A stretch of DNA of 46,168 nt, taken from a virus. The DNA is taken from the IMG/VR virus record IMGVR_UViG_3300008050_000083, positions 1 through 46,168 of that record, one strand, 5' to 3'. A model generated the notes under the pieces. That model was not told where the DNA came from and ran no database searches. It saw nothing but the letters and a program-made list of their open reading frames with translations. The position numbers and the translations under genes were made by a program. Positions 1,966-25,800 of this stretch are shown piece after piece (position 1 is the first letter of the stretch; the number at the start of each line of letters is the position of its first letter).

Positions 1966-3174
1966 ATGACCGGAATAGAAAAAGTAGCAGAACAAATCGG
2001 AGTAGGAACAGATATCCTTTCCGTTAGATTGGAACGGGTATTGAATGAACAAGGTGCAGCGTGGGCAGCTTCAGGTAAGAATGAAGATGACAGCAAAACA
2101 ATGGCACTTCGCGTAGCAGCGCGTCAAATAGTTAGTGAGCGTGCGAAGATTGCACGAAGCGGTTGTACCAGTTATGAAGGTATGTTAGTCAAAGTACCTC
2201 CTTACAAAGATTGGGGGCGTAACAGCTACCAAAGCATGAAAAAGACTTTGAGTTCTCTTGATGAAGAAGGGCGCGAAAGCCTAGTATCTCAAGGTTCTGT
2301 GGTTATTTTTGAGGACAACCATGACGGCACTTATACGCGCTACTTCAATCCTTCTCTTTTGGCGAAGCAAGCATTTGAAGTGGGTTCTGAAACTGACGAA
2401 GTATCAGAACAACCGAACCGGATCTTTGAGCTAGACGAAAACACCAGCTTTTATGTTGTTTGGGATAAGGCTAACCCCACATTCCCATCAGGAGATAGCA
2501 ATTTCAAATACGGCGCACCACGCCCTCTTCAGGAATTAGACAGACAATGTTTATTCTTAGGTCGCGAAGCCGGAACGACAGGTGATTTGGATATTTTTAC
2601 TGTTCGTTTGTCGGGTGAAATCGCTAAGAACCAGTATGAAGCTTTTAGACCTGGCACTATTGCCGTCAAACCAGGCCGAAACAACAACCTATATTCAAAG
2701 GCGGGAGTTACTGACTTCCAACCGGATGATTCATTGGCGAGTATTTTCAGCGGTCCTCCTTTGGCAATTGGTGATGAAGGGCCTGAGGGGATCATTCCTA
2801 GCGTTGTAACCGAGTTTTTACATGGGCTACATTCTTTACCTGATTACTACCAATCGCACCGCGAGGACAGCGATTGGTGGGGTCAATGGGTTGGTTTTAT
2901 TGGTGAGGTTATTCATATTGACCCAAGAGAGAAGGGTGGTTACACCCTGTCCGTTGGTGATTTGGATATTACTTCGACAGCACCTTCAATTGACATTGTG
3001 GTTCCCGCAGGGGTTTCACTTGACTTCGCCGTTGGCTCACAAATCGTAGTGGTTGGTGCGCCCTGGCAGACCAAAGAGGGTGACACACGGTTCTCTAACT
3101 ATGGTTGGTGGGTATTGGATGCAATTTCACCTGTTGCTTCTGCAAATAATTCAGACGAAGGATGGGATGAATGA
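1966..3174 (+). CDS. Probable ssDNA-binding (RPA/SSB-like) protein
   Basis: A 402-residue protein. It has an N-terminal helical part, a middle region with many beta-prone segments, and a C-terminal beta-rich section (WGQWVGFIGEVIHI, SQIVVVGAPW) resembling an OB-fold. It ends in the acidic tail SDEGWDE, a feature typical of single-strand-binding proteins that recruit partners. It directly precedes and overlaps a Sak4-like RecA-fold ATPase, a common pairing in tailed viruses. The identification rests on context, tail and predicted strand content, not on a clear motif. The alternative is a structural recombination mediator. Confidence 0.5.
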   Translation: MTGIEKVAEQIGVGTDILSVRLERVLNEQGAAWAASGKNEDDSKTMALRVAARQIVSERAKIARSGCTSYEGMLVKVPPYKDWGRNSYQSMKKTLSSLDEEGRESLVSQGSVVIFEDNHDGTYTRYFNPSLLAKQAFEVGSETDEVSEQPNRIFELDENTSFYVVWDKANPTFPSGDSNFKYGAPRPLQELDRQCLFLGREAGTTGDLDIFTVRLSGEIAKNQYEAFRPGTIAVKPGRNNNLYSKAGVTDFQPDDSLASIFSGPPLAIGDEGPEGIIPSVVTEFLHGLHSLPDYYQSHREDSDWWGQWVGFIGEVIHIDPREKGGYTLSVGDLDITSTAPSIDIVVPAGVSLDFAVGSQIVVVGAPWQTKEGDTRFSNYGWWVLDAISPVASANNSDEGWDE

Positions 3175-4121
3175 TGGCAGGTAAAGGATGGGGAGCTACG
3201 GCTGAATCCGCTAAGGAGGCTAAATCTCCAAAGTATGACGGTGACTATTACCGCGACCTCTTTACCACGCGCCGAACTACACACGCTCCAGTTCGTATGG
3301 CTTTGGTTGGTCGTGAGAATACTGCTAAGACAGGTTTAGCTGTTGATTTGATACGACAGACTATGCCTAAAGGCAGAATCACAATTTTTGATTTAGATAA
3401 TTCTGCAGCTTCAACAATCCGACACGCATACCCTGACGATGATGATATACATATTATCCCCCTCTATGATGAAGCAGATGAATCCCTATTCAATGCGGAT
3501 AATACTGTTCGCTGGCACGCTGTTATTGAAAAGGCAGGGTGGTATATTAATATGCTTGCAGAGGATATGAGAGAAAATCCCGATGATCACGCAGGATTTA
3601 TTTTTGATGGAGGCTCAAGCTTTCAAAAGTGGTGCGAGTTTGCTATGACTTGGCTACTTCTCAATCGCTCAAAGAACCCTATTGATGTAGCTCAAGGTGA
3701 TAGATTCAATCAGGCCGAATGGCGAACCAGAAATCAATACTTTAGAGATACCATTAGTCGGTTGATTAGTCTGCCATGCAGATTCGGATGCTTCACATTC
3801 CACCTCAAGGACATTAAGAATTATGTTGATAATGGTTCTGGTGGTAAGGTTCTCATGTCTGTCGGTGAACGCCCTGATTGGGTGGATGGAACACAGCGCA
3901 TGATGAATCAACAGATATTCCTAACACGATACATGAAGAAAGGAGACCAGGCAGCCGGTGTTAAAAGTGATAAGACACTCAAAGACGGTGAATGGGTCGT
4001 CAAAGCCTGTATTGAAGAAATGAAAGGTAAGAACATGGAGCTTCTCGGTAGCGAACATACTGTTTTGGGCGTCAAGAATGGTAAAGTGGAATGGTCTGGT
4101 ATCCCTGATTTGGTGTGGTAA
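3171..4121 (+). CDS. RecA/RadA-fold ATPase, Sak4-like recombinase
   Basis: A 316-residue P-loop ATPase. The Walker A motif is GRENTAKT (residues 47-54), with Ala in place of the usual Gly before the Lys. A following strand reads ITIFDLDNSA, and Walker B is GFIFDGG (142-148). This arrangement and size match the virus-encoded Sak4-type single-strand annealing ATPases related to RadA/Rad51. The start may be ATG 3171, which gives ATGA overlap with the SSB-like gene, or ATG 3174. With that gene it probably supports recombination-dependent replication or repair. A DnaB-like helicase is less likely because the protein is short and lacks a helicase domain. Confidence 0.75.
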   Translation: MMAGKGWGATAESAKEAKSPKYDGDYYRDLFTTRRTTHAPVRMALVGRENTAKTGLAVDLIRQTMPKGRITIFDLDNSAASTIRHAYPDDDDIHIIPLYDEADESLFNADNTVRWHAVIEKAGWYINMLAEDMRENPDDHAGFIFDGGSSFQKWCEFAMTWLLLNRSKNPIDVAQGDRFNQAEWRTRNQYFRDTISRLISLPCRFGCFTFHLKDIKNYVDNGSGGKVLMSVGERPDWVDGTQRMMNQQIFLTRYMKKGDQAAGVKSDKTLKDGEWVVKACIEEMKGKNMELLGSEHTVLGVKNGKVEWSGIPDLVW

Positions 4122-4122
4122 A

Positions 4123-4335
4123 ATGGTTTGGATTTCTGAACCTGGTTTTGTTATTCTAGAACCACACACCAGAACAATGAGTGGCATCAAGTTAGCAAAC
4201 ACTAGAGTATCTCGGCGTCATAACGACAATAAGTTAGTGGCCTGGATTGGGGAAATCCTGATCGAGCTAGAAGGCGGTCAATTCGTAGTAGCTGAAGAGC
4301 AAATAGTGGCGGTGTATTTTAATGACAAGAGTTAA
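4123..4335 (+). CDS. Minimal GroES-like co-chaperonin (candidate)
   Basis: A 70-residue protein directly upstream of a GroEL-type gene and overlapping it by 14 bases. PGFVILEPHTRTMSGIKL (residues 7-24) lines up with the GroES opening strand followed by the mobile loop, where the usual SGIVL-type hydrophobic tripeptide contacts GroEL. The end GQFVVAEEQIVAVY (52-65) resembles the final GroES strands that usually read eeYLivrEdDILAVv. GroES is about 95 residues, so the central barrel or roof region would be shortened. I start at ATG 4123 just after the upstream stop; an in-frame ATG at 4078 would run into that gene. The match is by eye. Confidence 0.5.
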   Translation: MVWISEPGFVILEPHTRTMSGIKLANTRVSRRHNDNKLVAWIGEILIELEGGQFVVAEEQIVAVYFNDKS

Positions 4336-5899
4336 AAGAGGAAAAGATGCTAGGTCAGCTTTGTTAAAGGGTATTGATGCAGTAGCTGATACCGTCAAAA
4401 TAACGCTCGGTCCCGCCGCACGAACAGTTATCTATCGTTCCCCGAAGGGAGCACCAATTGTTATTGATGATGGAGTTTCCATCGTAAATCAGATTCATTT
4501 AGAGGATCCATTCCAGGATTTAGGAGCTTCATTGATGAGGCAAATTGCCGGTGAAGCTCAAAAAGCTTCGGGAGATGGAACAACGACAGCGTGTGTTATA
4601 GCGCAGGCTATGGCTCACGAAGCAAATACCCAAATTATATCTCAAGACCTAACCCCAATTCAGTTAAAGAGGGAAATAGATACAATAATAGAGTCAGTAG
4701 TGGCTTACATTTTAGATGAAGCAGAACCCGCTGTCATGGGTCAATTGAGGAATGTAGCCACCATATCAGCTAATGGAGATGAACCTCTAGGTGATGTTAT
4801 ATCAGAAGCCTTTTCTAATGTGGGTGATGGAGGTATTGTTGTTGTTGAAGAATCCCTCGATCCAGGACCTACTCTTGAAATGATAGAGGGTATGGAAGTA
4901 ATGACGGGTGCAGCATCCCCCCACTTATTGAACGGGGCTAAGGAGCAACGATTTGATAATGCTCTAGTGCTTTGCACAGACGAAACAATATCACAATTCC
5001 AAGAGCTAATCCCTGCCCTAGAAGTAGCGCAGAAGGAGAAGCGACCTTTAGTGGTTTATTGTGCTGCTATAAAACCTATGGCTCTTCAGAACCTATGTTT
5101 GAATGTTGTGCAGGGTAATATCAATTGTTGTGTGTGTGAGCTACCAGGTTATGCTCAAGACCAAACGGATATATGTTTTGATATATCAGAAAGAACTGGA
5201 GCATACACATTTATTCAAAATCTGGGTGATAGAATTGCTGACTTGAAAATCGAGGGTGATGAAACACCACTCGGAACAGCTAGTATTACTATAACAAATA
5301 CTCAATCAATAATTATCAGCGAACATGAACCGTCTGAAGATTGGATGGAACGATTAGAGTTAGAAATGAAAAATGCAGACCATCCCTGGTCTGCGGAGAA
5401 AATCGCTAATAGAATTGCTCGTATCAAGGGGCAGATTGCTGTAATCAAGGTGGGTGCTACAACCCAAGCAGAACTCTATGAAAAGAAAGCTCGTATTGAC
5501 GATGCTATCAATGCCACCAGGGCTGCCCTTAAGGGCGGTGTGATCCCTGGTGGAGGTATGATGTTAGTAAAGGGTGCATGGGAATACTGTTTATCAGACC
5601 CTGACGCAACGGGTAGTTTGACACCTGCGAAATCAGTAGTCTTTGAAGGTCTTACTGCCCCTCTTAATCAAATCGTAAAGAATAGTGGTCGGACAGAAGA
5701 GTGGGCTGCTATAATTGCTGGTGGTATGGTGGAGAAGAATGAAGGTTGGGATGCCAAAGAAAATGAGATATCTGATCCTATGGCCGGTGGTATCATTGAC
5801 CCTGCTTTGGTGGTGATTAATTCGCTTAAAGCAGCAGCTTCAATCGTGGGTCTTTTACTAACTACCGAAGCTGTCGTAGTAGGTGTTGATAATGAATAA
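4322..5899 (+). CDS. groEL-like: GroEL-type (group I) chaperonin
   Basis: A 525-residue HSP60 chaperonin that would fold viral proteins in an ATP-driven ring. Hallmarks are KITLGPAARTV (26-36), DDGVSIV (49-55), GDGTTTA (84-90), and in the last third IAVIKVGATT with KKARIDDAINATRAAL and GGVIPGGG. It resembles bacterial GroEL (group I) and not the archaeal thermosome (group II), whose signatures differ. The ATPase aspartates (in DDGVS, GDGTT and RIDDA) are present. The C-terminal Gly-Gly-Met tail is absent; the protein ends VVVGVDNE. The apical region is diverged and Cys-rich (NINCCVCELPG), which may tune it to a particular client. Confidence 0.92.
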   Translation: MTRVKRGKDARSALLKGIDAVADTVKITLGPAARTVIYRSPKGAPIVIDDGVSIVNQIHLEDPFQDLGASLMRQIAGEAQKASGDGTTTACVIAQAMAHEANTQIISQDLTPIQLKREIDTIIESVVAYILDEAEPAVMGQLRNVATISANGDEPLGDVISEAFSNVGDGGIVVVEESLDPGPTLEMIEGMEVMTGAASPHLLNGAKEQRFDNALVLCTDETISQFQELIPALEVAQKEKRPLVVYCAAIKPMALQNLCLNVVQGNINCCVCELPGYAQDQTDICFDISERTGAYTFIQNLGDRIADLKIEGDETPLGTASITITNTQSIIISEHEPSEDWMERLELEMKNADHPWSAEKIANRIARIKGQIAVIKVGATTQAELYEKKARIDDAINATRAALKGGVIPGGGMMLVKGAWEYCLSDPDATGSLTPAKSVVFEGLTAPLNQIVKNSGRTEEWAAIIAGGMVEKNEGWDAKENEISDPMAGGIIDPALVVINSLKAAASIVGLLLTTEAVVVGVDNE

Positions 5900-6293
5900 C
5901 ATAGGGGGCGATTGTAAGCCCTTTATGCCCGTATGGGGGGTAAGTGACCCCGAAGTGAAAAGGGTCGCAGGAAAGGCCGTTCTAGACCCCTTAAACGCCG
6001 CGTGGGTTTATTGGTGCAAACGCCCTTTCAAGACCATGTGCAGGTTCAACGGTGATGAATTAACATTAACCATTACTCTTTTTTGTGACGACATATCAAT
6101 AATAGTGAGTGACGAACACCATATTGATATATGTTACTGCGAAGAACTAATACAGCAATTCGCTAGAGATAGCAGACAACACGGAACAACGGTTGAAGAG
6201 TTTGCTCTAGGTTTGAAAGATTTGTGGTCCCATCTCAGTATAGAAGTAACAGGTATAGCTCCTAGTCATGGCCCTTTTAGGGTGAGAGTGTGA
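5892..6293 (+). CDS. QueF-like tunnelling-fold protein (candidate)
   Basis: A 133-residue protein. I start at ATG 5892, which overlaps the chaperonin stop, and not at 5883. By eye two segments match QueF (preQ0 reductase) or the amidino-transferring QueF-like proteins. FKTMCRFNGDELTL (46-59, Cys50) fits the strand carrying the thioimide-forming Cys. RQHGTTVEEFALGLKDL (95-111) fits the RxHGxxxE block whose Glu holds the base. A final EVTG...HGPFRVRV fits the closing strands. The next gene is DpdA-like, whose relatives put 7-deazaguanine into DNA, so a linked role is coherent. Sequence identity is low and the call is tentative. Confidence 0.4.
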   Translation: MNNIGGDCKPFMPVWGVSDPEVKRVAGKAVLDPLNAAWVYWCKRPFKTMCRFNGDELTLTITLFCDDISIIVSDEHHIDICYCEELIQQFARDSRQHGTTVEEFALGLKDLWSHLSIEVTGIAPSHGPFRVRV

Positions 6294-6964
6294 AAGTCTT
6301 TTTATCAATGGTTCCCAGCAAGCTCCTAAAGTGGTTGGAATATACTCCTGATGGTTATTTGGTTACACCTCACAATGTCGGTTGGGCCAAAGGCTCAAAA
6401 GGTCCTGCAACAAGAACACCTGACGATATTCCGATGATCGTTGATAACGGAGCTTACAGGAACAGAAACGAAGATGAGTTGCTGGATCCAGCCAAGAACA
6501 TTAGCGATATGAAATCAGCTATATCTGCCGTAGCGAATCCCGTTCACTTCGTAGTGCTGACAGACCGCTTCGGGGATTGGGAAAATAGTATTAAGTTATC
6601 TCGTCAAGCTGTGGAGCTTTGGGGTGATGAGTACCCAAAAGCTTTAGTCCTCCAGGATGGATTCACACCAGAAGATGTTGAGCCTTTCTTGAATGTTATT
6701 GAATATCTCTTCATTGGAGGGTCTGATTGGGATTTCAAAGTGAAGGCTATTGAGTATGCACTCACTACTGATTTGAAAATCCATGTGGCTAGAGTTTCCC
6801 GCCGTTATCAGATTCTTTGGTGTCTGCGTAAGAAAGTGGACTCAATAGATAACAGCACCTGGGCGAACAATCTAAATCTGTGGAGGAGGTCGGGTCGTGA
6901 TGTTATCAAGCAAAATATAGAGTTAATACAAAATTGGAGTGAAAAAGAGCCGGAATGGCTATAA
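6290..6964 (+). CDS. DpdA-like / TGT-superfamily protein, DNA base exchange (candidate)
   Basis: A 224-residue protein. Segments in order: MIVDNGAYRNR (49-59), HFVVLTDRFGDWENS (86-100), ALVLQDGF (118-125), LFIGGSDWDFK (140-150), HVARVSRRYQILW (165-177) and DSIDNSTW (184-191). This order of a D-N/S-G motif, an aspartate strand, a QDG strand, a GGS loop and a DS(I/V)D end is that of the small TGT-like DpdA proteins of viruses, which exchange guanine for a 7-deazaguanine in DNA. It overlaps the QueF-like gene by four bases. It ends Glu-Trp-Leu, shared with four other proteins here. The host could supply preQ0. Confidence 0.55.
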   Translation: MKVFLSMVPSKLLKWLEYTPDGYLVTPHNVGWAKGSKGPATRTPDDIPMIVDNGAYRNRNEDELLDPAKNISDMKSAISAVANPVHFVVLTDRFGDWENSIKLSRQAVELWGDEYPKALVLQDGFTPEDVEPFLNVIEYLFIGGSDWDFKVKAIEYALTTDLKIHVARVSRRYQILWCLRKKVDSIDNSTWANNLNLWRRSGRDVIKQNIELIQNWSEKEPEWL

Positions 6965-6972
6965 TGCAAGCC

Positions 6973-6990
6973 TTTATATTATACCGCTTT
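6973..6990 (+). promoter_or_regulatory. Leaderless archaeal promoter for the sliding clamp
   Basis: TTTATATTATA followed by CCGCTTT, with GCAAG before it as a possible BRE. The TATA core starts at 6975, 28 bases before ATG 7003, so transcription would begin at or next to the start codon. It is almost identical to the promoter at 13778. Confidence 0.7.
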
Positions 6991-7002
6991 CAAGGTGAAA
7001 AT

Positions 7003-7815
7003 ATGACAATAGAAACACGGAACGATGCCCTTAAACGATTATTAGAACTGACTCAACGAAAGCAAAGTGTGTCGGGCAAATTACAAGAACAGGTTATTGC
7101 TTGTGTTCTTCGCTCTGATGGTAGCAACATAACCACTACTTCGCTAGTGCGAGATGGAAAGACTAGCCTAGCACAATTCAAAGCAGCGGCAGAGGGTGAA
7201 AGCACATTCATACCAATTCCTGATATTGAGCGTCTTTTGGGTGTATTGAATGCACACGGAACAAACCTCAAATTGAGCATGGAAAATAGTAAGATCCGAG
7301 TCAAGTCCGGCGGGAAGCAAACCTCATTGATAGCGGATTTGAACGGGTTAGCATTTCCTCATTCTTCTGAAACAATTGGTGAATGGGAAGATAAGTCTGT
7401 TGAGCTATCCTCTTCGCTTAGTCGTGACGGATATATGATGAAGTCGGGTGATTTGAGGGAACCATTCTTTACTGTGACCCTTGAAGCTGTGGCCCTGTTT
7501 GAAGCTTTACGATGTGATTCTATCAACAATCAAAAATTGAACCGATACACCTTCAATCTAACTGATGGTGAGTTCAAAGTATTTGTTGGTGATGAATTAA
7601 AGGGAGCTACTAGCATTCTTCTGCATACAGACCTTGAAGGTGATGATTGGGAATGGACTTTTGAAGGAGGTTTAGAACATATATTCAAACCGTATTCGGG
7701 TGACTGTCACTTAGACTTCATAGATTTCAGGGCTGAAGGTCAAGGTATTAGAGTCTTTATCACACTACCTGATGGTAGCTGGGTCTTTCAAGCGGGTATA
7801 ATTCCGAGGGATTGA
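7003..7815 (+). CDS. Sliding clamp, PCNA-like
   Basis: A 270-residue DNA clamp, the usual size for PCNA or T4 gp45, that would encircle DNA and tether polymerase and modifying enzymes. I place the start at ATG 7003, because upstream in-frame starts lie inside or before the TATA box. The tail matches the PCNA end: strands CHLDFIDFRAEGQGIRVFI, then GSWVFQAGIIPRD, comparable to the LAPR-type C-terminus. The N-terminal half has alternating strands such as TFIPIPDIERLLGVL. It sits in the middle of genes whose products share a C-terminal EWL tail, which fits a role as common docking platform. Confidence 0.75.
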   Translation: MTIETRNDALKRLLELTQRKQSVSGKLQEQVIACVLRSDGSNITTTSLVRDGKTSLAQFKAAAEGESTFIPIPDIERLLGVLNAHGTNLKLSMENSKIRVKSGGKQTSLIADLNGLAFPHSSETIGEWEDKSVELSSSLSRDGYMMKSGDLREPFFTVTLEAVALFEALRCDSINNQKLNRYTFNLTDGEFKVFVGDELKGATSILLHTDLEGDDWEWTFEGGLEHIFKPYSGDCHLDFIDFRAEGQGIRVFITLPDGSWVFQAGIIPRD

Positions 7816-7817
7816 TA

Positions 7818-8777
7818 GTGAATGTCCTGGCTTTATGTGCCGGAATCGGTGGGCTTGAACTCGGAATCAAACTTGCTTGTCCTCGATCCACTACCGTTTG
7901 TTATGTGGAGGGGGAGGCCTTTTCTGCTACCACACTTATCTCGCAAATGGAAGGAGATGTCTTGGATGAAGCTCCTATCTGGTCTAATGTTAAAACCTTC
8001 GATGGCTCAAAGTGGTGTGGAAAAGTGGATTGCATCTCTGGAGGCTACCCCTGCCAACCATTTTCAGTTGCAGGAAAGCGAGAAGGTGAAGGCGACCCGC
8101 GACACCTATGGCCTGACTTCAAACGGATCATCGGAGAAGTCAGACCCCGAATCGTGTTCTTTGAAAATGTACCAGGACACCTCACACTTGGGTTCTCCTC
8201 CGTGTTACGCGACTTACGAGGACTTGGTTATTCAGTTGAAGCAGGATTATTTTCAGCGGCAGAAGTCGGAGCACAACACCTCCGAAAAAGGCTCTTTATC
8301 ATGGGCTACACCGAACACGCTGGATTTCATGCCTCAACGAAGCGAAGAGGGAATGAAGAGGTTAATGGAAGGGCATCGGAAAGGCCGAGCCAGGCCAAGC
8401 AATCTTCGGGAACAGATAACCCCTCAATGGTGGCCGACCCCGATAGCGAGCGCATCGCGGGGTGTAACGAATCCCAAATCTCAATCAATCAAAAAGGGAG
8501 CAAAGGCTTCCCGCTTGAACTCAACGGTGCTTGCCACCCAATCTGGCCTCCTAGACCAAACGAAACAGAAGCCTGGAACTTCGCAATCAACAGATTCTCC
8601 GACCTTAGACCGGCTATACCTGAATCCCAGCTTCGTGGAATGGTTAATGGGAATGCCCTCAGGGTGGATCAGCTTAGAGCCCTCGGAAACGCAGTCGTTC
8701 CGTTGGTTGGAGCTTATGCGTGGTTCGTTTTATCATCTCGTATCGGAATACGAATATCAGCAAAGGGAGGAATATGA
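7818..8777 (+). CDS. C5-cytosine DNA methyltransferase
   Basis: About 319 residues from GTG 7818, which is preceded by GAGGG; TTG 7812 would add two residues. It transfers a methyl group from SAM to cytosine C5. The motif order is complete: I LCAGIGGLELG, IV GGYPCQPFSVAG with the catalytic Cys, VI FFENVPGH, VIII QHLRKRLFIMGY, then a variable target region and motif X DQLRALGNAVVP. The whole gene overlaps a second open frame (7822-8787) that also shows conserved sequence, so its codons are doubly constrained. It is the only modification-type gene in this run without an EWL end (it ends SAKGGI). The target sequence cannot be deduced. Confidence 0.93.
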   Translation: MNVLALCAGIGGLELGIKLACPRSTTVCYVEGEAFSATTLISQMEGDVLDEAPIWSNVKTFDGSKWCGKVDCISGGYPCQPFSVAGKREGEGDPRHLWPDFKRIIGEVRPRIVFFENVPGHLTLGFSSVLRDLRGLGYSVEAGLFSAAEVGAQHLRKRLFIMGYTEHAGFHASTKRRGNEEVNGRASERPSQAKQSSGTDNPSMVADPDSERIAGCNESQISINQKGSKGFPLELNGACHPIWPPRPNETEAWNFAINRFSDLRPAIPESQLRGMVNGNALRVDQLRALGNAVVPLVGAYAWFVLSSRIGIRISAKGGI

Positions 8778-8787
8778 ATGGTTGTAA
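7822..8787 (+). CDS. Overlapping-frame protein with methyltransferase-associated motifs
   Basis: A 321-residue frame, +1 relative to the C5-methyltransferase and open along its whole length. It is not random. It contains SLSWATPNTLDFM and WWPTPIAS, and then LYLNPSFVEWLMGMPSGW near residues 270-287. These are the WxTP and NPxxVExLMGxPxGW signatures common in virus proteins annotated as DNA-methyltransferase-related. It ends YEWL, the tail shared with four neighbours, and its last codons overlap the next gene's start at 8778. The first possible start is ATG 7822, four bases after the methyltransferase GTG. A partner or target-recognition subunit is plausible. Function is unproven. Confidence 0.65.
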   Translation: MSWLYVPESVGLNSESNLLVLDPLPFVMWRGRPFLLPHLSRKWKEMSWMKLLSGLMLKPSMAQSGVEKWIASLEATPANHFQLQESEKVKATRDTYGLTSNGSSEKSDPESCSLKMYQDTSHLGSPPCYATYEDLVIQLKQDYFQRQKSEHNTSEKGSLSWATPNTLDFMPQRSEEGMKRLMEGHRKGRARPSNLREQITPQWWPTPIASASRGVTNPKSQSIKKGAKASRLNSTVLATQSGLLDQTKQKPGTSQSTDSPTLDRLYLNPSFVEWLMGMPSGWISLEPSETQSFRWLELMRGSFYHLVSEYEYQQREEYEWL

Positions 8788-9932
8788 AGGATATTGTTTT
8801 AACCTGTCAAGTGAAGCATGATGAATACACTAAGATAGCTGAAAAGATGTTTGATATTCCTCTAGAGGAACGATCAAAGACAGTTATTAAGAATCTAATC
8901 CGACCTCCTGATGATTACAGTATAGGTTGCATACATGGTCCATCTGGCTGTGGTAAGACAACACTACTCAATACCTTCGGTAAGCCATACGAGCATAAAT
9001 GGGATGGTTCTCGTTCTATCATCAGCGATATAGGGCATTCATTCAATTTAGAACCAGAAGATGCTGCCGGTGTTCTTTCTGCTGTCGGTCTATCATCCGT
9101 TCCTTCATGGGTCAGACCTCATCACCACTTATCAAACGGTGAACAATTCAGGGCAGACCTGGCTGCAGCTATAGCTCATTCAAGAACGAGCGAAGAACCT
9201 ATCCTTATTGATGAGTTTACTTCAGTTGTTGATAGGAATGTTGCGAAAGCAGCAAGCTTTGCTCTTCAAAAGTATATTAGAAAATCAGGTGGAAGGGTTA
9301 TCGTATCATCCTGCCATGTTGATATTCTAGAGTGGTTGAATCCAGATTGGACTTACAACCCTCTAGATGCAAAAACCATCGTGAACGAGACCAGGGGGTG
9401 GTCGGTTCATAGACCATCAATTGAACTCAAAATATACCGAGCGCACTATGAAGCGTGGGACCTATTCAAAGAGCATCACTATCTGACGGAGGGTTTGAAT
9501 CGTGTTGCCAAAATCTTTATTGCCTCATGGAACGGAGTCCCTGTGGCCTGTTCATGCACACTACCATTCCCAAACGGAGGAATACCTAATGGTTGGCGAG
9601 CTAGCAGAACGGTGGTGTTACCAGACTATCAAGGGCTTGGCATCGGAGTCAAGCTGTCAGACTTTATCGCTTCAATGGTCGTGCGCGGAGGTGGTCGTTA
9701 TTTCAGCCGCCATTCCCATATCGCATTTGCGGCTCACAGAATCAACAATCCCAATTGGAAAGAAACAGCAGTATCTAGGAAAGTGCATACCCATCCTGGA
9801 AATGAGGATTATGGATGGAAAGCAAACCTTAGAGATTGCTGGTCGTTTGAATATATTGGGGAGCCAGCTAGCTGGGAAGATGCAGAGTTATTTTGGTCGT
9901 GGAAGGTGAGCACAAATGCAGAGTGGTTATGA
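8778..9932 (+). CDS. ABC-type ATPase fused to Mom-like GNAT domain
   Basis: A 384-residue two-domain protein. Residues 1-195 are a soluble ABC ATPase: Walker A GPSGCGKTT (54-62), signature LSNGEQ, Walker B ILIDEF and switch histidine SSCHVD, with no membrane part. Residues 205-384 form a GNAT-like domain: FKEHHYL (near 230-236), then TVVLPDYQGLGIG, the acetyl-CoA-type loop. The His-Tyr pair and context resemble phage Mu Mom, which adds a methylcarbamoyl group to adenine N6. The ATPase may scan or remodel DNA for the modifying domain. It ends AEWL. The start overlaps the methyltransferase stop. An ordinary acetyltransferase is the alternative. Confidence 0.7.
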   Translation: MVVKDIVLTCQVKHDEYTKIAEKMFDIPLEERSKTVIKNLIRPPDDYSIGCIHGPSGCGKTTLLNTFGKPYEHKWDGSRSIISDIGHSFNLEPEDAAGVLSAVGLSSVPSWVRPHHHLSNGEQFRADLAAAIAHSRTSEEPILIDEFTSVVDRNVAKAASFALQKYIRKSGGRVIVSSCHVDILEWLNPDWTYNPLDAKTIVNETRGWSVHRPSIELKIYRAHYEAWDLFKEHHYLTEGLNRVAKIFIASWNGVPVACSCTLPFPNGGIPNGWRASRTVVLPDYQGLGIGVKLSDFIASMVVRGGGRYFSRHSHIAFAAHRINNPNWKETAVSRKVHTHPGNEDYGWKANLRDCWSFEYIGEPASWEDAELFWSWKVSTNAEWL

Positions 9933-11100
9933 GATAATACAAGGTAACGCCCTTGATGAGCTTAGAAAGCTTCCTGCAGGACACGCTTATACCTGCGTCA
10001 CTTCGCCTCCTTATTGGGCTTTGAGGGATTATGGGATCGAACCCTCAATTTGGGAAACCTCAATATCGGACCCCAATTGTGAGCATGAATGGGAAATGTT
10101 TGAAGTCAAATCAGGACAACGAGGCGGAACAAACAATCCTTTGTTCGGAGCTTTCAATGGTGATACTCATATATCATCTGTCAATTATGGATTTTGCCCC
10201 TGCGGGGCATGGTTGGGAACGCTCGGTCTTGAACCGACTCTTGAGCTATTCATTGAACATATATGTCAGATTTTTGATGAAGTGTGGCGAGTCTTGAAGG
10301 ATGATGGCACACTATGGCTCAATCTCGGTGATTGCTACAATGGATCAGGTGGTGCTGGAGGCGATTACAGTAAAGGTGGTATTCGTGAAGGGCAACCGAA
10401 ATACCCAGGTCGACTCAACCCCGACTTAGCACCCAAGAATCTTTTAGGAGTTCCCTGGCGCATAGCACTTGCTCTCCAAGAACGAGGATGGATTCTCCGT
10501 TCAGATATTATTTGGCATAAACCAAACCCTATGCCTGCTGGTGTGACCGACAGACCAATTATGGCTCACGAATACATATTCCTATTCGCCAAGCAACAGA
10601 AGTATTATTATGATGCTGACTCGATCCGAGTCAAGGCCAAGCACCCTGTCATTGGTAAGCAACCGCCAAAGAAAACCGAATCAAAGGAGGAAGTTACTCT
10701 TGATGGTATGTCTATGACTAGGGCAGGTGAAATCACTATGGGCGCGGGTTCAAGACCGCGTGGTTTGAACGATTACATAAGCACACATGGCCGCCATTCA
10801 CACCCGAAGGGGCGACACCCCCATAGCGTGTGGAAAGTGGCTACAAAGCCCTACAAAGGGGCGCATTTCGCTACATTTCCCCCCGACCTAATCACCCCAT
10901 GCGTTAAGGCCGGTTGCCCCGAAGGAGGGATAGTGCTTGACCCATTTTCAGGAACAGCTACAACGGGTCAAGTAGCCCTAGAGAACGGGAGGAACTATTG
11001 TGGTATTGAAATAGGAGATGATTATATTAAAATGGCAGAAGATCGTCTATCTCAAGTGGATAAAAAGTTAGGTTTGACGGATAAAACTGAATGGTTATAG
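9916..11100 (+). CDS. N4-cytosine/N6-adenine DNA methyltransferase, beta class
   Basis: A 394-residue SAM-dependent amino-methyltransferase. The catalytic motif TSPPYW (29-34) comes first and the SAM-binding DPFSGTATTG (near 342-351) last, the beta-class order. SPPY favours N4-cytosine but does not exclude N6-adenine. Between them are CEHEW and CPCGAW, a four-metal-ligand insert typical of virus-encoded members, and TLWLNLGDCYNG with PWRIALALQERGW. The first 17 bases overlap the upstream gene. It ends KTEWL. With the C5 enzyme and the Mom-like and DpdA-like genes it forms a DNA-modification block, probably protection against host restriction. Confidence 0.92.
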   Translation: MQSGYEIIQGNALDELRKLPAGHAYTCVTSPPYWALRDYGIEPSIWETSISDPNCEHEWEMFEVKSGQRGGTNNPLFGAFNGDTHISSVNYGFCPCGAWLGTLGLEPTLELFIEHICQIFDEVWRVLKDDGTLWLNLGDCYNGSGGAGGDYSKGGIREGQPKYPGRLNPDLAPKNLLGVPWRIALALQERGWILRSDIIWHKPNPMPAGVTDRPIMAHEYIFLFAKQQKYYYDADSIRVKAKHPVIGKQPPKKTESKEEVTLDGMSMTRAGEITMGAGSRPRGLNDYISTHGRHSHPKGRHPHSVWKVATKPYKGAHFATFPPDLITPCVKAGCPEGGIVLDPFSGTATTGQVALENGRNYCGIEIGDDYIKMAEDRLSQVDKKLGLTDKTEWL

Positions 11101-17805: not shown

Positions 17806-20800
17806 TCAGAAAGAGCCACGCCGTCTGTCTTGATTCTTTCCGAGATTTTTCTTATTATCGTATATTGGATATGGCTCAATGTTAGCTGCTTCACTAACCC
17901 CTGCTAGAGGAGACGCCTTGAACATAATATCTAAATCGTGAATGACTATCGCGTGATTACCAGCAGTATCATCCGTTCCATCAAAGACCCTACTAAGAGT
18001 AATTTTCATAGTATTACCCGCACCATCACTCCCCTTCAATCTAGCGTTTTCAGCTAATACATATTTAGTGCGTTCAATATCTCCAAAGTGCTGTCTATTA
18101 CTATTATCACCGGCAGAACCCTCATTTGTTGTGGCAGAAGTGGGTGTGTTATGAGCGATAACTTGATGAGGGTTCCCTAAGTCACCCTCAGTGGATCTTG
18201 CTAGAATTACATTTCTAGAGAACGAATCACCTGTTTCAATGATTTCAACCTTAGCCATTAATACAGCTTGACTACTTAATTCTGCTATTGTCCCTAATGA
18301 TGCCTGTATATTTATGGTGAAGCCTGCTTGAGATACATTGTTAGGAATGCTTAGAACTGCCTCAGCTTCGTGAAGGGTTGGGTTCAAAGTTTCTCCTGTA
18401 CTACTAGGCCACACACCTGGTAAAACCAGGCCTTCATCACTATTGACAGCACCTCCCGAAGTGACTTGGAATCGGACATTTGGAACAGAAGATACTCCTT
18501 GATTTGTTGCCTTTTGTGAAGATCCACCTAATGCCTGTCCGAAATTACCACCTGCGTTAATATCAGAACCCATGTTCATTCTGTCCTTTATTCGGTTAAT
18601 CATGCCGCTTTCAATTTCATTGATGCCTGTTTGTTTTCCCTGATAGTCGGTTCCGCTACCACCTGGCGTTCCACCCCTAACATTTAGATTTTGGCTAGAA
18701 CTGCCTGCCCTTCTTGAGTAATCTGTATCTTCTGAACCATCGTCTTTAATGTCCTTGTTTTCATCAGTATTTCCTCTATCACTATCTCCTTTGTTAGAAG
18801 TACCTGATGTTCCTCCAGTTCCTCCTCCACCCCAATACCTATCGTCATTGTTACTACCTCCAGATTGTGAAGTGTTCAATTGAGGGTATAGGAAGCCATA
18901 CATATCTCCAGATAATTTTGAAGTATCTTCAGTCAATGTTAATTTAACAGTTTCAACATTACGACCATTGATTACCCAATCAACACGAGAAACGAGATAT
19001 TGTTCGTTAGTCATACTAAGCCTGTCGTCTGTAATATGCACAATTTGTCCAGGATTGAAATTAAGATCATCCACGATATGCAAACGAGGCGCGTGATAAA
19101 TCGCTTGACCTCCATGCCCGTAAAAGGTCGAGCTAGCATTTGGCAAACCGTATTCGGGATAATGTCTGATTCCGAGTGGGAATAAAGAGTTTTGGTTGAA
19201 GGTTCCTGACGAACCCCCATCGGTTTGATAAACTGCATCAAGGTTGTGAGCATTCTGACACTTTATGGCTGTTGTTGGGTGATAGCATCGGTGACGGAGA
19301 AGTGAGCGCAAATAATCCACATTGACTGAAAAAACTATGGTGGCTGATGATGGGCAATCTGAACCCGCAACATACGAAGCGGGAACAGGGCATTCCCACA
19401 AACCATTTGCTCTAACAGTAACCTTAGAGGATGAAGTGCTTGAACCGATACCACCACTACCGCGCTCACTAGAAGAAAATGTTGGTGTGGCTGAGGTATC
19501 ATCATCAATCAACGGATCAAACAGGATAACATCAAATGTTGCAGAGTCTATATCGCCATGAGTTTGACCAGGTGTTAAAGCCACCACTATTCTTAATTCG
19601 TGATTTCTAAAACCAGCAGTATTTGTTCCGCTAACATAGGGGAAGTGTTGAGGAACATGAACCACTTGAACAGCCTTACTAAGAGATTTTGCTCCATACC
19701 AATAATACCATTCATGCCACAACCAAATAGTCGCAGCAGCAGCATTATCAACGGGAGTCCTGTATGTATCAAAATGAGCACACTCCGAAGCACCCCTTCC
19801 ATGCTCACCGATCCAACCATTGAGCACTTGAACATCTGCAGGGTCATAACCCATACCGTTCCAATGATCTTCTCCTCCGAAGGGAATACCCACTATGTCT
19901 TTTCCATCCCCAGCATAACCCGTTAAATTGCCGTCTAAGCCGTTCTGAATCCCCATGTGGGGGCAACCCCCCATAGAAGAACCCCAAAACCACTGCTCTT
20001 GATTTACGGGCTTACCATCGGGACCACCAAACCATGTAGCGGGGTCTGCAATATACCCATATCTAGCTCCACCGAGCATCTTATCATCTGTATTCAAATC
20101 CTTGATGAACTCAACCACGAGCTTTTTACTAGACTTTTTGGCTTTGGAGTATTCCGCTTGAGCTATAGCTCTTGCTTCGGAAGAACTGACGACATCTGGC
20201 ATTTCAACGAGCCTCCATTTACTTTTAGTGTTCATTGAGCTTGGTTCGGGGTAATCCACAAAGCTTTTACCTCCGCGATAGAAAACCCTCACTGAAGTAA
20301 TTTGTCCTGACATATCTGTTGTCAAGTCGGAATAGTTAATGTTATCGCGATTGAGAATCCAACCGCTATTATAGGGAGGTCGGAAAGCAAATCTCCCATC
20401 TCTATCCATGAAGAATCCCCAATTGAGGAAATGCCCATTTACTTTCCCATAAGAGGCACCAGTTATTATTTCTTGGATAGCTCCTAAAAGAGTTTTACCA
20501 CGAACATCTGTAACAGAACCGAAATCATCTTCGGTATAATAGGGAGCACCTACTGTTAAATCAGTTACATGGTTGTTGGCAATAGGGATATTGTTAATAT
20601 CGTGAATACATGGTAAGGTTGTTTGTTGCGACCAATGTTTTGTTAGACCTAGCATCCACAACATTCTGAACTTATCATGTAAATAATATGTTCCGGTATT
20701 CCTGGATTCAACAAAGCCTTCAAGGTTGAGCATGAGCCTCAATGGGATGCGGTTTGCTAAGTTACTGCTTATTTGTATTTGTTCCCAAGTCAAACCTGGT

Positions 20801-23800
20801 ACTACTTCATCTTCTTTCGCTAATTCCCAATTGCTGTTTATTGTGGTTGATGATGATCTTACTGCGTTCATCAGGGTATTTGAAATCATAATTTGTTCTA
20901 TCGCGTCTAACATACCAGTTACACCAGAAGAACCTGAAGTAATGTTAGTAGCCATTTGGTAGTAATCCACAGTATAAACATTCAAGAGTTCAGTATCTCC
21001 TTTTCCGTTCCACGAAACATAGGCTCTTTCAATTGTATTTCCGTCAGTAGCTGTTAGGAGGCCGACCCCCACTTGAGGGAATAGCGTTGTTGATTCAATG
21101 TTTATACTGCTATCACCTATTCGGATTGATTCTGTCGCCAATTGAACATCTGCTAGGAAAAACTTAGCCTTCGGATTTCTCCTAATTTCTCCTTCGGAGT
21201 TATTGAAATTGGCTATTGCCTGCAACCAATAGTTATCAACCAAAATAGGACTCCCTTCGCTGTCAGTTTCAAAATCTCCTAAATCCTTTTTACCACCAGA
21301 ATTACGACCAGTACTACCACCATTAGCTGCGGTATTAAGATTGAAAAACTTAGAAAAGTCTATGACTATGAAAGCTCCAGCTTTATCCTCCCAATCGTGA
21401 TACATACTGTTATCTTCATCGTTGCTAGCTCCGCTAATAGCAGACCAAGCCTTATCACTTTCACCTTTGGCGTCACGAACCCACTCACTTGTAGCATCAA
21501 ACGCCCAAATATCACAATCTTCGCCCACTGAAAAACTGAGATACTTTTCTAGATTCCCTTCAGTATCATTTTGATCCACATAGGTTAATGATAAATCGTA
21601 ATTTTGAGAAACGGGATAAATGAGACCAAAATCAGTCTTACGACTCCCACCGTCAGCATCAGCCGTTCCATCGTTCCTCATATCAGCCCAAAGAACCCAA
21701 AGGTGTTTGTATTCATCGCGATATCTCCTGACCTTCACTATTGCACCAGTAGGAATATCAACTGAATGACCGTAAAGATTCCCAATAGTAAAGGTTCCAC
21801 CCGCCCCAAAGTATAACGAACCCATTGTGGCTGCAGAACCCACATAACCAGGTGTAGTCAAATGTTGAGTATCCCAAAAGCCTCTATCTCTAGTGGATAG
21901 GTAGTTACCATCAGCATCCTTCAACCAATAAACAGTAGTGTTTGATATTTGAGATACAGAACCACGACCACGCGGGCTTGTGATTGTTGGTGTTGTTATA
22001 CGAGAATATGCAGAACCTCCTGGTCTAGAAGAAGTACCAGGTAGTTTAGTGGCGTCAGCTAATTCTAATTGCCAAACGCCATCATAAGCCAAACCTTCAG
22101 CGTTGAGCCCATTTCTTGTTGCTGGATCCGTTGATTGCTTTCCGATATAGACCCATACACCATCAAGACCAGTAGTTAATGTCATGGTGGCTCTAGATGA
22201 CCAGTGCTTTTGATAATCATGCGTTGCGCTGCCGGTTGGATTGGGTTCGTATGGGTATAAAAAACCTCCTTGACCAGGAATTGATGGGTTGGAAGCATTA
22301 CATCTGGTCGGATATATTGTATTATCGTAAGAAAGTGAGCCGGTTGTTGAGACTGTTCCATCACAAATAGCAGTATCTAAAAGAGTTGTTCCATCTGCAG
22401 ACCAAAACTCAAGTATAGCTCCATCGTTAGGTATGTCTATACCATCTTGACCGTAATATCCTGAACCCGATTGAATAGCTGCCACATAAGCATAGCGGCT
22501 CTTAAAATCACCGGCTGTTCCTGACCAGGTTATTTGAGTATCACTTGTGGCTAGAGCATGAGGGATTGTAAATGTCACAATAGGAGTCTTTTCTATCGGG
22601 GCGAAGAGTTGCTTAAAACGCATTGACTTTTTAAGATCCTCAATCCAACGAGCGTGTATATCCCTGTAATTAAACTTAGGTGGTCGCATGGTTGATTTGT
22701 AAGCGTTTGGTTTGCAGACTGACATATACATAGCAGTAGTTGCTGATATATCATTAGAGCCTCCTGCGGGATTATATGTAACGGGATTCACACCGTATGA
22801 ACCTCTAGAAGTCGGATCTTGAACCAAGCCCTTGAATGAGGTCATTAATCCGATTTCAGTATATGGGGTGTTTTGAACAGGACCTGCCATTGTTCCCGAT
22901 GCTCCACTAGCAACATAAGCTGCTACGGCTACATTCCATTCATCAATAAGTGTTTGAGTCATTTCCCTGATATAGACTACTCGGTGCATACCTTCATAGG
23001 AAAAACCAGCCCATTTTGTCTTATAGGTGGTTGCAGAATGTATGTGTTCATAATTAGGGTCAGAAGTATCAGTCCATTCGGTAGTATGTTGCGGTGTGTG
23101 AGTAGCCATATTCCCGCCCGCGTACCAATGGTGGTTAAGCTGAACTTCACCTCCCCAATAATCAGTAATACCTATTATTGAATCCCTGGTTAAAGCCATA
23201 CCGTATTCAGTATTCACTAAACCATCAACACAAATTGCTAGATTTTGGTCTCCATTAGCATTAAAATTAGCATGAGTTGAGCGTTCTGGTGTTTGAGTAG
23301 GCCAAGAATTACCTCCCCACCAAAGCTTATGATAGATGATTTTAGTATCAGGTGTAAAGTAATCCGTTCCCGCTGAGGCTCCTTTACTAACTACTACCCA
23401 ATCAAAGAAAAACTCTCCCGTTGGGTCAGCATCCTGATCCACATTATTAATATCAGTAGCTCCCCAGGGCCTACCGCTACTATGGTTGCCCTGGTCAGAA
23501 CCTAGACCTCCACCTTGTTGTCCGATGGCTTCAACAGTAAAGTCATGTGGTGCAGCATTGTAAGCGGCTTGAGTATCTCCATAGTATGTTCGTTGAGGTA
23601 AATTATAGAGTTTTATAGTATCACTAACACTTAAACCAGCAACAAACTCATTTTGTGTTCCGCTTGTCCTGGGGAAATAGATTCGGAATTGGTTGGCTTG
23701 AGTATTGCTAGAATGACCCATATCTGTTATACCAGCTATTGGATAAGCCTCAAAGTCGCGATATACCTGATTAGGTCCATCATCATCTTCACCAGCATAC

Positions 23801-25800
23801 ATTTGAATAGGATGGCCGGAATGTAAAAGAGTTCTTTGGCTCTTAAGGGGGGAATAATCATCGTCATAAGTACCTGATATTTCTGGTTCGTGAATCTCAA
23901 GGGATTTAACGCCTGTATTCAACCGTTCATAAAGTCTGCTCATTTCTGTTTCCCTAAAATCTGTTATGGAAAACTCGCCCCTAGAACTTTGACCGATTTC
24001 CCACATAGGGATAGAACGATTCATAACAGCTAGAGCGTCTGAGGCTCTTAAGGTAACTTTCTTTTCATTATCCCTCCCTTGATTCGTTGATATTTTATCT
24101 AAAAAGCCTCTCCAAAAGGGCCTATCCACATTATCTCGGAAAGCAAGTAATTCCCAATCATTAGGTTCTTCAGATACTCCATGAAGTAGTGTGTTAAATA
24201 GAGTGTTATTGTCATCATCATAATATGTCAAGACAGCCTTTCCTATGCCGTTGATTTGTCTGGAAAGACTCCAATTTGAAAATTGAATATCTGGATCAGT
24301 AACAGGGCTCATAATTGGGATATTATTAGACAAATCCTTACCGCAATAGGTTCTGTCTATTAGAGTATGAACATGGAGACTCCGATTATTAGATTGTATG
24401 ATAGGAGCATATTCAATTTGCCAACCGTAAGCAATTGAAGGAGTTATACTACCATTAGCGAAGGAATAAGGGGCTGTTTGATTTCCACCAGGCATTAAGG
24501 TATTTCCGGTAACTTCAGCACCATCAACATATACTCGGTATTGGTGGTTGGCCCAATCAATCTTAAACTCTATATCCTTCCATAAATCTTCATTGGTATA
24601 TTCTCTTAGATTTGTGGTATCATCAGTATTCCATTCATAAGGAATAACAGTCCATGCGCCTCCACCACCAACACCTGAAACAGGGTTAAATACCCATTCA
24701 ATTGCTGCTGTTGCATTAGAACCACCAGATGTTTTATACCCATTATCTCCGGCGACTAGAGAAGCCGTTGAATCATACCCGACCTTGAGAGAATAATTAA
24801 CTCCTGTGGATTGTCCGTCAGCTTCTTGATATGTGGTGTGGTCATCTGCTTGCCACATAAAAGAGGACATTCTAATACCGAACCAATCTTCAATACTTGA
24901 GGGGTTTAGATCACCATCGTATAACATTTGAAATAACCTGGTCAAAGCTGCTCCTCCACCATAGACTAGGCTTTTATCATGGAATCCTGCTAAAGCAAAG
25001 AATGGTTTTCCGGCTGGAGATTTGATTTGAGCTGTTTGTGCGTTAGGAGTCCATGCTCCGCCGCGATAGTCAGGACCATAAGACGGCCACCCACTATGAT
25101 CATGCCAAACATTACTCCAAATGCTAGTTAAGTAACCGTATTGATGAATTGTCGGAGAAGCAACTGATACTGACATACCATTACTGCCGGAAGCCCAATT
25201 CACAGGGATTTGGAAGTCAGCACCATAGATTAATGACCTACCATGCGTGGCGTCAGTACTCCCACTCCATACCAAGTATTCTCCATCAGTATTATAACCG
25301 TTACAAAAAAGAGTATAGGATTGAGCGGTTGAGTAGTGAGATGTATATCCTCCGTATATCCACCTGTTACCAACTAAAGTGCAGGGGTATTCTAATTGTG
25401 CTCTTCCGGCATATCCGATAGTACCATCATTTTCTGACCCTAAAGCGTGTTTGTCGTGGGTGATGTATTCGTGAATGCCTCCATTATGAAGAAATCTTTT
25501 GTGATAGACTTCTGGTAAAGCTTCAAGTCCTGCATTCAAAATTGCACCGAATGGTCCCCTCCAGGTAGTGTTACCGGATAGCGCGGTGTATGTGGTCTTT
25601 CTTTCCACCCAGGAATAGCGATAGCGTGGATTCAGCGGCGCGTTTCCGTTCATGGGGTTGCCTTGATGGGTTGTTTCGTAACCATCGTAACTAGAAGGGA
25701 TTGCTGTATTCGCATCATCCGGTAACGCCCTGGCTCCGTTATAATCATCGTAGTAACCAGCTATCCAAAAGTTGAGCTTTCTATCAACAGTTCTAACCAC
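17806..25800 (-). CDS. Giant tail-tip / baseplate hub and host-contact protein
   Basis: A 2664-residue protein downstream of the tape measure, the position of the tail-tip hub. Around residues 400-430 FKIDWANHQYRVYVDGAEV resembles a concanavalin/LamG lectin strand pair. Near 505-600 (SLSRQINGIGKAVLTY, then KVTLRASDALAVMNRS) and again near 1830-1900 (QITSVRVFYRGGKSF, then SSEARAIAQAEYSK) are hub-like segments. They are split by about 1200 residues of beta-rich, aromatic, Gly/Thr/Ser-rich sequence. A Gly-Ser-Asp low-complexity linker lies at about 2320-2390, then a beta-rich terminal domain. The inserted part is the likely receptor-binding region. It overlaps the tape-measure end by eight bases. 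Confidence 0.75.
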   Translation of the reverse strand: MVRTVDRKLNFWIAGYYDDYNGARALPDDANTAIPSSYDGYETTHQGNPMNGNAPLNPRYRYSWVERKTTYTALSGNTTWRGPFGAILNAGLEALPEVYHKRFLHNGGIHEYITHDKHALGSENDGTIGYAGRAQLEYPCTLVGNRWIYGGYTSHYSTAQSYTLFCNGYNTDGEYLVWSGSTDATHGRSLIYGADFQIPVNWASGSNGMSVSVASPTIHQYGYLTSIWSNVWHDHSGWPSYGPDYRGGAWTPNAQTAQIKSPAGKPFFALAGFHDKSLVYGGGAALTRLFQMLYDGDLNPSSIEDWFGIRMSSFMWQADDHTTYQEADGQSTGVNYSLKVGYDSTASLVAGDNGYKTSGGSNATAAIEWVFNPVSGVGGGGAWTVIPYEWNTDDTTNLREYTNEDLWKDIEFKIDWANHQYRVYVDGAEVTGNTLMPGGNQTAPYSFANGSITPSIAYGWQIEYAPIIQSNNRSLHVHTLIDRTYCGKDLSNNIPIMSPVTDPDIQFSNWSLSRQINGIGKAVLTYYDDDNNTLFNTLLHGVSEEPNDWELLAFRDNVDRPFWRGFLDKISTNQGRDNEKKVTLRASDALAVMNRSIPMWEIGQSSRGEFSITDFRETEMSRLYERLNTGVKSLEIHEPEISGTYDDDYSPLKSQRTLLHSGHPIQMYAGEDDDGPNQVYRDFEAYPIAGITDMGHSSNTQANQFRIYFPRTSGTQNEFVAGLSVSDTIKLYNLPQRTYYGDTQAAYNAAPHDFTVEAIGQQGGGLGSDQGNHSSGRPWGATDINNVDQDADPTGEFFFDWVVVSKGASAGTDYFTPDTKIIYHKLWWGGNSWPTQTPERSTHANFNANGDQNLAICVDGLVNTEYGMALTRDSIIGITDYWGGEVQLNHHWYAGGNMATHTPQHTTEWTDTSDPNYEHIHSATTYKTKWAGFSYEGMHRVVYIREMTQTLIDEWNVAVAAYVASGASGTMAGPVQNTPYTEIGLMTSFKGLVQDPTSRGSYGVNPVTYNPAGGSNDISATTAMYMSVCKPNAYKSTMRPPKFNYRDIHARWIEDLKKSMRFKQLFAPIEKTPIVTFTIPHALATSDTQITWSGTAGDFKSRYAYVAAIQSGSGYYGQDGIDIPNDGAILEFWSADGTTLLDTAICDGTVSTTGSLSYDNTIYPTRCNASNPSIPGQGGFLYPYEPNPTGSATHDYQKHWSSRATMTLTTGLDGVWVYIGKQSTDPATRNGLNAEGLAYDGVWQLELADATKLPGTSSRPGGSAYSRITTPTITSPRGRGSVSQISNTTVYWLKDADGNYLSTRDRGFWDTQHLTTPGYVGSAATMGSLYFGAGGTFTIGNLYGHSVDIPTGAIVKVRRYRDEYKHLWVLWADMRNDGTADADGGSRKTDFGLIYPVSQNYDLSLTYVDQNDTEGNLEKYLSFSVGEDCDIWAFDATSEWVRDAKGESDKAWSAISGASNDEDNSMYHDWEDKAGAFIVIDFSKFFNLNTAANGGSTGRNSGGKKDLGDFETDSEGSPILVDNYWLQAIANFNNSEGEIRRNPKAKFFLADVQLATESIRIGDSSINIESTTLFPQVGVGLLTATDGNTIERAYVSWNGKGDTELLNVYTVDYYQMATNITSGSSGVTGMLDAIEQIMISNTLMNAVRSSSTTINSNWELAKEDEVVPGLTWEQIQISSNLANRIPLRLMLNLEGFVESRNTGTYYLHDKFRMLWMLGLTKHWSQQTTLPCIHDINNIPIANNHVTDLTVGAPYYTEDDFGSVTDVRGKTLLGAIQEIITGASYGKVNGHFLNWGFFMDRDGRFAFRPPYNSGWILNRDNINYSDLTTDMSGQITSVRVFYRGGKSFVDYPEPSSMNTKSKWRLVEMPDVVSSSEARAIAQAEYSKAKKSSKKLVVEFIKDLNTDDKMLGGARYGYIADPATWFGGPDGKPVNQEQWFWGSSMGGCPHMGIQNGLDGNLTGYAGDGKDIVGIPFGGEDHWNGMGYDPADVQVLNGWIGEHGRGASECAHFDTYRTPVDNAAAATIWLWHEWYYWYGAKSLSKAVQVVHVPQHFPYVSGTNTAGFRNHELRIVVALTPGQTHGDIDSATFDVILFDPLIDDDTSATPTFSSSERGSGGIGSSTSSSKVTVRANGLWECPVPASYVAGSDCPSSATIVFSVNVDYLRSLLRHRCYHPTTAIKCQNAHNLDAVYQTDGGSSGTFNQNSLFPLGIRHYPEYGLPNASSTFYGHGGQAIYHAPRLHIVDDLNFNPGQIVHITDDRLSMTNEQYLVSRVDWVINGRNVETVKLTLTEDTSKLSGDMYGFLYPQLNTSQSGGSNNDDRYWGGGGTGGTSGTSNKGDSDRGNTDENKDIKDDGSEDTDYSRRAGSSSQNLNVRGGTPGGSGTDYQGKQTGINEIESGMINRIKDRMNMGSDINAGGNFGQALGGSSQKATNQGVSSVPNVRFQVTSGGAVNSDEGLVLPGVWPSSTGETLNPTLHEAEAVLSIPNNVSQAGFTINIQASLGTIAELSSQAVLMAKVEIIETGDSFSRNVILARSTEGDLGNPHQVIAHNTPTSATTNEGSAGDNSNRQHFGDIERTKYVLAENARLKGSDGAGNTMKITLSRVFDGTDDTAGNHAIVIHDLDIMFKASPLAGVSEAANIEPYPIYDNKKNLGKNQDRRRGSF

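Follow-up and report, generated by a model that had tools for sequence, protein, structure and literature searches.

We identify the product of an open frame at positions 6290–6964 (forward strand, 224 residues) of the window, which spans an entire IMG/VR virus contig (46,168 bases), as a short and divergent DpdA (7-deazaguanine DNA transglycosylase), an assignment that we make with high confidence by sequence family, predicted fold, invariant residues and gene context. Immediately upstream, and overlapping it by 4 bases, a second open frame (5892–6293, forward strand) encodes a 133-residue orphan protein that is a candidate QueF-like enzyme by its motif statistics and borderline QueF profile scores (Cys50, Asp55, Arg95-His97-Gly98, Glu102); a preliminary description of this DNA had proposed such an overlapping pair, and the two frames are indeed open and tightly packed. 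We hypothesize that the two genes form a compact DNA-modification cassette in a magrovirus-like tailed virus: the short DpdA would replace guanines of the viral DNA with a 7-deazaguanine, most probably preQ0 or one of its derivatives, and the host's own pathway would supply the preQ0. The 133-residue protein would most likely be a very divergent QueF/QueF-L T-fold enzyme, which through a thioimide at Cys50 would convert the preQ0 nitrile, as the free base or in DNA, to preQ1 or archaeosine, and viral DNA modified in this way would resist host restriction, being disguised from the host. To this explanation as a whole (DpdA, host preQ0, a divergent QueF/QueF-L and protection from restriction) we give a probability of roughly 0.55; the DpdA assignment is its firmest part, and what we infer is the activity on DNA, the origin of preQ0 in the host, the role of the 133-residue protein as a QueF, the identity of the final base and the protection.

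The pair is embedded in a compact run of forward-strand genes. The start of the 133-residue gene overlaps by 8 bases the stop of a GroEL-type chaperonin gene (4322–5899; Pfam E = 5.7e-41, PHROG E = 9e-107), and the end of the DpdA gene is overlapped by 10 bases by the start of a conserved replication-block gene of the virus lineage (6955–7815), present in 82 related loci and perhaps encoding a sliding clamp (weak match to DNA polymerase processivity factor, PHROG E = 0.23); both of these neighbors lie outside the pair. The same modification cluster continues with a C5-cytosine DNA methyltransferase (7812–8777, forward strand; Pfam E = 1.7e-31) and an N6-adenine/N4-cytosine DNA methyltransferase (9916–11100, forward strand; Pfam E = 2.7e-44). 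Positions 8778–9932 encode a fused ABC-type ATPase and GNAT acetyltransferase (phrog_11143, E = 7e-106), which is shared by many phages, has a homologue in Gordonia phage Jace whose gene neighbors that of a ParB-like nuclease, and may be a further base-modification enzyme. The placement of GroEL is itself variable in the virus lineage, where across 31 related loci the gene precedes or follows the conserved gene at 3171–4121 or lies at a distance from it. Elsewhere in the record, a very long reverse-strand ORF of 2,664 residues (17806–25800) adjoins one of 1,248 residues (25793–29539), and both are probably tail genes.

PHROG was the sole family library to recognize the 224-residue protein, through phrog_15826 (E = 1.7e-9); Pfam, NCBIfam and single-sequence PDB searches were blank and PADLOC returned nothing useful. 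Two phage relatives were found directly, one of them labelled a DpdA-like tRNA-guanine transglycosylase (Aoka gp40). As a single query the protein retrieved no relative in the viral scan, and the three-sequence alignment that joins it to the two phage relatives, used as a profile, retrieved 18 and then 80 viral loci. The columns that are invariant in a 16-protein alignment include D52, N53, D92, G95, D96, Q122, G124, F141, G143, G144, K150, H165, R168, S185 and D187, and in comparison with 66 relatives every fully invariant residue is kept in the 224-residue protein: D52, D92 and D187 are present in 66 of 66 relatives, and D96 is also present in the protein itself. We take D52, D92, D96 and D187 (in the DSG/DNG, DxxGD and SxD motifs) to be the catalytic acids, by analogy with TGT. 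Identity to the short DpdA members aligned is only 21–27%, and three positions that are near-invariant in the family are altered in the protein (A167, S170 and N188). One homologue, from Erythrobacter phage ZS04 (L002, 5935–6576), is annotated as a 'DarB-like antirestriction protein'; this label was set aside, as the protein can be aligned with the DpdA family over its full length and is a member of the short DpdA family.

The predicted structure points in the same direction. An AlphaFold2 model computed from an alignment with 13 relatives (pLDDT 80.9, pTM 0.82) finds TGT at the first two ranks of the PDB (4gg9, E = 4e-5; 2nso, E = 7e-5), and annotated queuine tRNA-ribosyltransferases recur among the viral models that match it. 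The ranks below TGT are occupied by other TIM barrels, and because these score close behind, the TIM-barrel fold alone is not specific for DpdA. Profiles were also compared directly: HHalign aligned the short-family profile co-linearly with the DpdAs of 9g, Dp-1, L114 and L025 (probability 80%, score 43.1, P = 1.4e-5), and the best of 60 column-shuffled control profiles reached 17.7 against the same canonical DpdAs. The TGT/DpdA-like reading of the second gene in the preliminary description, made there from strand order, hence stands well beyond chance, and a TIM barrel that retains its active-site residues is what the model predicts; of the profile searches it had proposed, the one against DpdA succeeded, and those of the 133-residue protein against QueF fell short of significance.

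Since the best solved fold match is a TGT, and the same base exchange is carried out by both enzymes, the 224-residue protein could in principle be a TGT-type enzyme that acts on host or viral tRNA and not on DNA. We regard this as very improbable. PF01702 (TGT) matches nothing in the record (all 14 control genomes gave a match), and the TGT zinc motif CxCxxC is missing both from the protein, which has one Cys only, and from all 67 short DpdAs checked. The chain is also 224 residues long against about 370 in TGT chains, no tRNA gene or Rfam family was found in the 46,168-base record, and the cluster also includes two DNA methyltransferases. Furthermore, the short DpdA family is nearly confined to viruses: scanning 84,980 species genomes yielded a single match.

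Gene context connects the short DpdA family to 7-deazaguanine metabolism. Loci were searched with profiles for QueC, QueD, QueE, QueF and the YhhQ-type transporter, with 89 loci of the record's own virus lineage as controls; at least one of these genes lies near 42 of 70 distinct short DpdAs and in none of the 89 control loci, the share of QueF being biased upward because a few of the 70 entered via a QueF search. Pfam confirmed examples of each class (QueF, QueC, PTPS for QueD, Vut_1 for YhhQ and a radical SAM protein that is QueE-like). QueF lies directly upstream of the short DpdA in several loci (L001, L020, L075/L117, L007/L121, L118, L119 and L120), and in the actinophage-type loci the upstream QueF-like protein has about 100 residues and matches PF14489 and TIGR03139, its profile having the archaeal QueF-Like structure 5jyx as first PDB match. 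In Mycobacterium phage Knocker the QueF gene and a queuine tRNA-ribosyltransferase gene share 4 bases, an arrangement also seen in the record. Some of these genes carry other annotations: Knocker gp2, labelled GTP cyclohydrolase I, resembles a QueF, and its gene overlaps the DpdA gene (L206, 108–500 and 497–658), and Aoka gp39 (L001, 3601–3930), annotated as hypothetical, matches QueF.

Within the record itself, the only nearby gene of the 7-deazaguanine type is the QueF-like candidate. QueC, QueD, QueE and YhhQ were not detected beyond chance in the 46-kb record, which may be incomplete, and within that limit the earlier observation that preQ0 synthesis genes are lacking holds. This absence makes the host the likely source of preQ0. 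A precedent exists, as DpdA without pathway genes has been reported in halovirus HRTV-29 and Salmonella phage 7-11, and a host origin of preQ0 has been proposed for HRTV-29 (PMC8651126).

The preliminary description had aligned the 133-residue protein with QueF by eye, and that claim survives in part. The frame is open and the blocks FKTMC (46–50) and RQHGTTVEE (95–103) are present and uncommon: the pattern F...C(25-60)R..G...E, which was picked by eye before its statistics were computed, matches 0.15% of shuffled versions of the protein (n = 200,000) and 7 of 5,369 background ORFs, is itself found in 5 of the 11 canonical QueF sequences used, and in a looser form (C...R..G...E) is reached by 1.6% of shuffles. 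The comparison of the whole protein with QueF is less favorable. Pfam QueF does not match it; 61 to 298 of 5000 shuffles score as high against QueF profiles, 51 and 115 of 2000 reach the score of the protein against smaller QueF profiles, and 13 of 300 do so in HHalign, which places significance at the borderline (p of about 0.01–0.06) and amounts to no proof of homology. There are also differences in detail, in that an Arg replaces the Pro of CP next to the FKTMC Cys, the Asp lies at +5 where QueF usually has +7, the RQHGTTVE block carries a 4-residue insertion after Phe relative to QueF, and the ExxSL block of QueF relatives is absent. A single-sequence AlphaFold2 model of low confidence (pLDDT 42.6) predicts the element order b-b-b-b-a-a-b-b, which is compatible with a T-fold, and a Foldseek search with this model, which is too poor for its matches to count as evidence, returned nothing significant (a single GTP cyclohydrolase I appeared at E = 3.3).

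Position favors the QueF reading, because QueF genes directly precede short DpdAs in phages and the overlap of 4 bases recurs in Knocker. Weighing motif and position together, we consider a QueF-like enzyme plausible and lean slightly toward assigning the 133-residue protein to QueF/QueF-L, which is a judgement and not a computed value. The principal competing explanation is that DpdA alone inserts host preQ0 and that the upstream gene encodes an unrelated small viral protein of the same operon. Indeed, 28 of the 70 short DpdAs have an unrelated neighbor or no pathway genes nearby, DpdA stands without pathway genes in HRTV-29 and phage 7-11 as noted above, and the 133-residue protein fails the family tests, with no match in Pfam, PHROG, NCBIfam, PADLOC or the PDB and no relatives among phages, viral contigs and viruses related to this one, or in 50 records carrying short DpdAs. 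(A match of residues 10–42 to the L020 contig, at 11.9 bits, was dismissed as chance.) We nonetheless find an unrelated protein doubtful, given that a QueF-type motif is uncommon by chance, that the predicted order of secondary structure elements, albeit from a low-confidence model, suits a T-fold, and that the overlap with DpdA reproduces the QueF–DpdA pair of Knocker.

Alternatively, the protein could be a true partner of DpdA that is not a QueF, for instance a different T-fold enzyme, a DNA-targeting subunit, or a producer of some other preQ0 derivative. The tight overlap with DpdA would suit such a partner, as would the failure of the QueF, QueD, QueC, QueE and YhhQ profiles to match anything in the record beyond chance and the lack of any known family for the protein; however, QueF agrees better than the alternatives tested with the motif and with the Cys, Asp and Glu positions of the alignment, and there is no positive sign of another function, which leaves a non-QueF partner unlikely. 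We put slightly lower still the chance that the gene represents a new kind of DpdA partner from a lineage of uncultured archaeal viruses, one that would generate an undescribed 7-deazaguanine derivative in DNA or direct the exchange to specific sequences.

If the divergent QueF/QueF-L that we prefer is correct, archaeosine, the product put forward in the preliminary description, is only one option, because Dp-1 and HVTV-1 yielded mainly preQ1 despite a predicted QueF-L (PMC6884629). Sequence alone does not decide whether the final base is preQ0, preQ1 or archaeosine. A protective role would be consistent with the finding that 7-deazaguanine bases protect DNA against restriction enzymes (PMC6884629), and an assay exists for the chemistry proposed for Cys50, in which the preQ0 adduct is followed at 376 nm (PMC5485725).

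The record carries an archaeal-type replication and tailed-virus gene set (PolB, RFC-type clamp loader, GroEL, terminase, portal and tail tube). Its PolB is closest among isolates to those of haloarchaeal tailed viruses and has relatives in 80 viral loci, the nearest being 60–61% identical; a PolB scan of species genomes for a host found none. By PolB, the RFC-type clamp loader and GroEL, the gene content of this marine virus is magrovirus-like, a likeness drawn from the published description of magroviruses (Magrovirales, viruses of Poseidoniales; PMC10768690). No copy of the pair was found among the relatives of the virus: in the nearest, L123 and L124, it is missing from the interval bounded by the two conserved flanking genes, and none of 50 related virus records contains a short DpdA. 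One of these 50 (L025, 3819–4604) encodes a different DpdA (Pfam PF23859, E = 4e-74), which resembles mycobacteriophage proteins at about 48% identity. From the absence of the short DpdA in these relatives and the different DpdA in L025, we infer two or more gains of DpdA within this virus lineage, or else frequent loss.

Short DpdAs have already been annotated as DpdA-like and DpdAs that use host preQ0 are known, so the 224-residue protein is best regarded as a new divergent member of an established group. What is new is the controlled context evidence for phrog_15826, a DpdA in a magrovirus-like virus, and an unexplained overlapping partner gene. Our reading would extend 7-deazaguanine DNA modification to the magrovirus-like lineage, for which we found no report of it in the open-access literature, and ties phrog_15826, listed as 'unknown function', to preQ0 genes with a control. 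It further suggests that such viruses can draw on the preQ0 produced by hosts for tRNA archaeosine, and the family offers a short list of candidates for the smallest working DpdA.

The closest known counterparts are the phrog_15826 phage proteins (Aoka gp40 of Arthrobacter, Majeke gp54 of Mycobacterium and ReqiPine5 gp03 of Rhodococcus phages), which share the profile, size and invariant residues of the 224-residue protein, whereas the latter comes from an archaeal-type virus, differs at A167, S170 and N188, and is only 21–27% identical to the family members aligned. Canonical DpdAs (those of 9g and Streptococcus phage Dp-1, and the PF23859 proteins of mycobacteriophages and L025) have the D(S/N)G, DxxGD, H and SxD motifs in common with it; however, it is about 90 residues shorter than the DpdA of 9g and escapes detection by Pfam. 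The 133-residue protein may resemble bacterial QueF and archaeal QueF-L (PF14489, TIGR03139; 4f8b, 5jyx) in its possible catalytic Cys50, RxHGxxxE block, size and predicted element order, but lacks a significant profile match, the CP pair, the C(x6)D spacing and ExxSL. In the cassettes that combine a YhhQ-type transporter, QueF-L and a short DpdA (L001 of Aoka, L020, L075/L117 and L119), a small gene lies directly upstream of DpdA, as it does here; the record has no YhhQ-type transporter, which is what one would expect of a virus whose host synthesizes its own preQ0. HRTV-29 and Salmonella phage 7-11 likewise have a DpdA without virus-borne preQ0 synthesis (PMC8651126; PMC6884629), but their DpdA stands alone, whereas that of the record is accompanied by an overlapping small gene.
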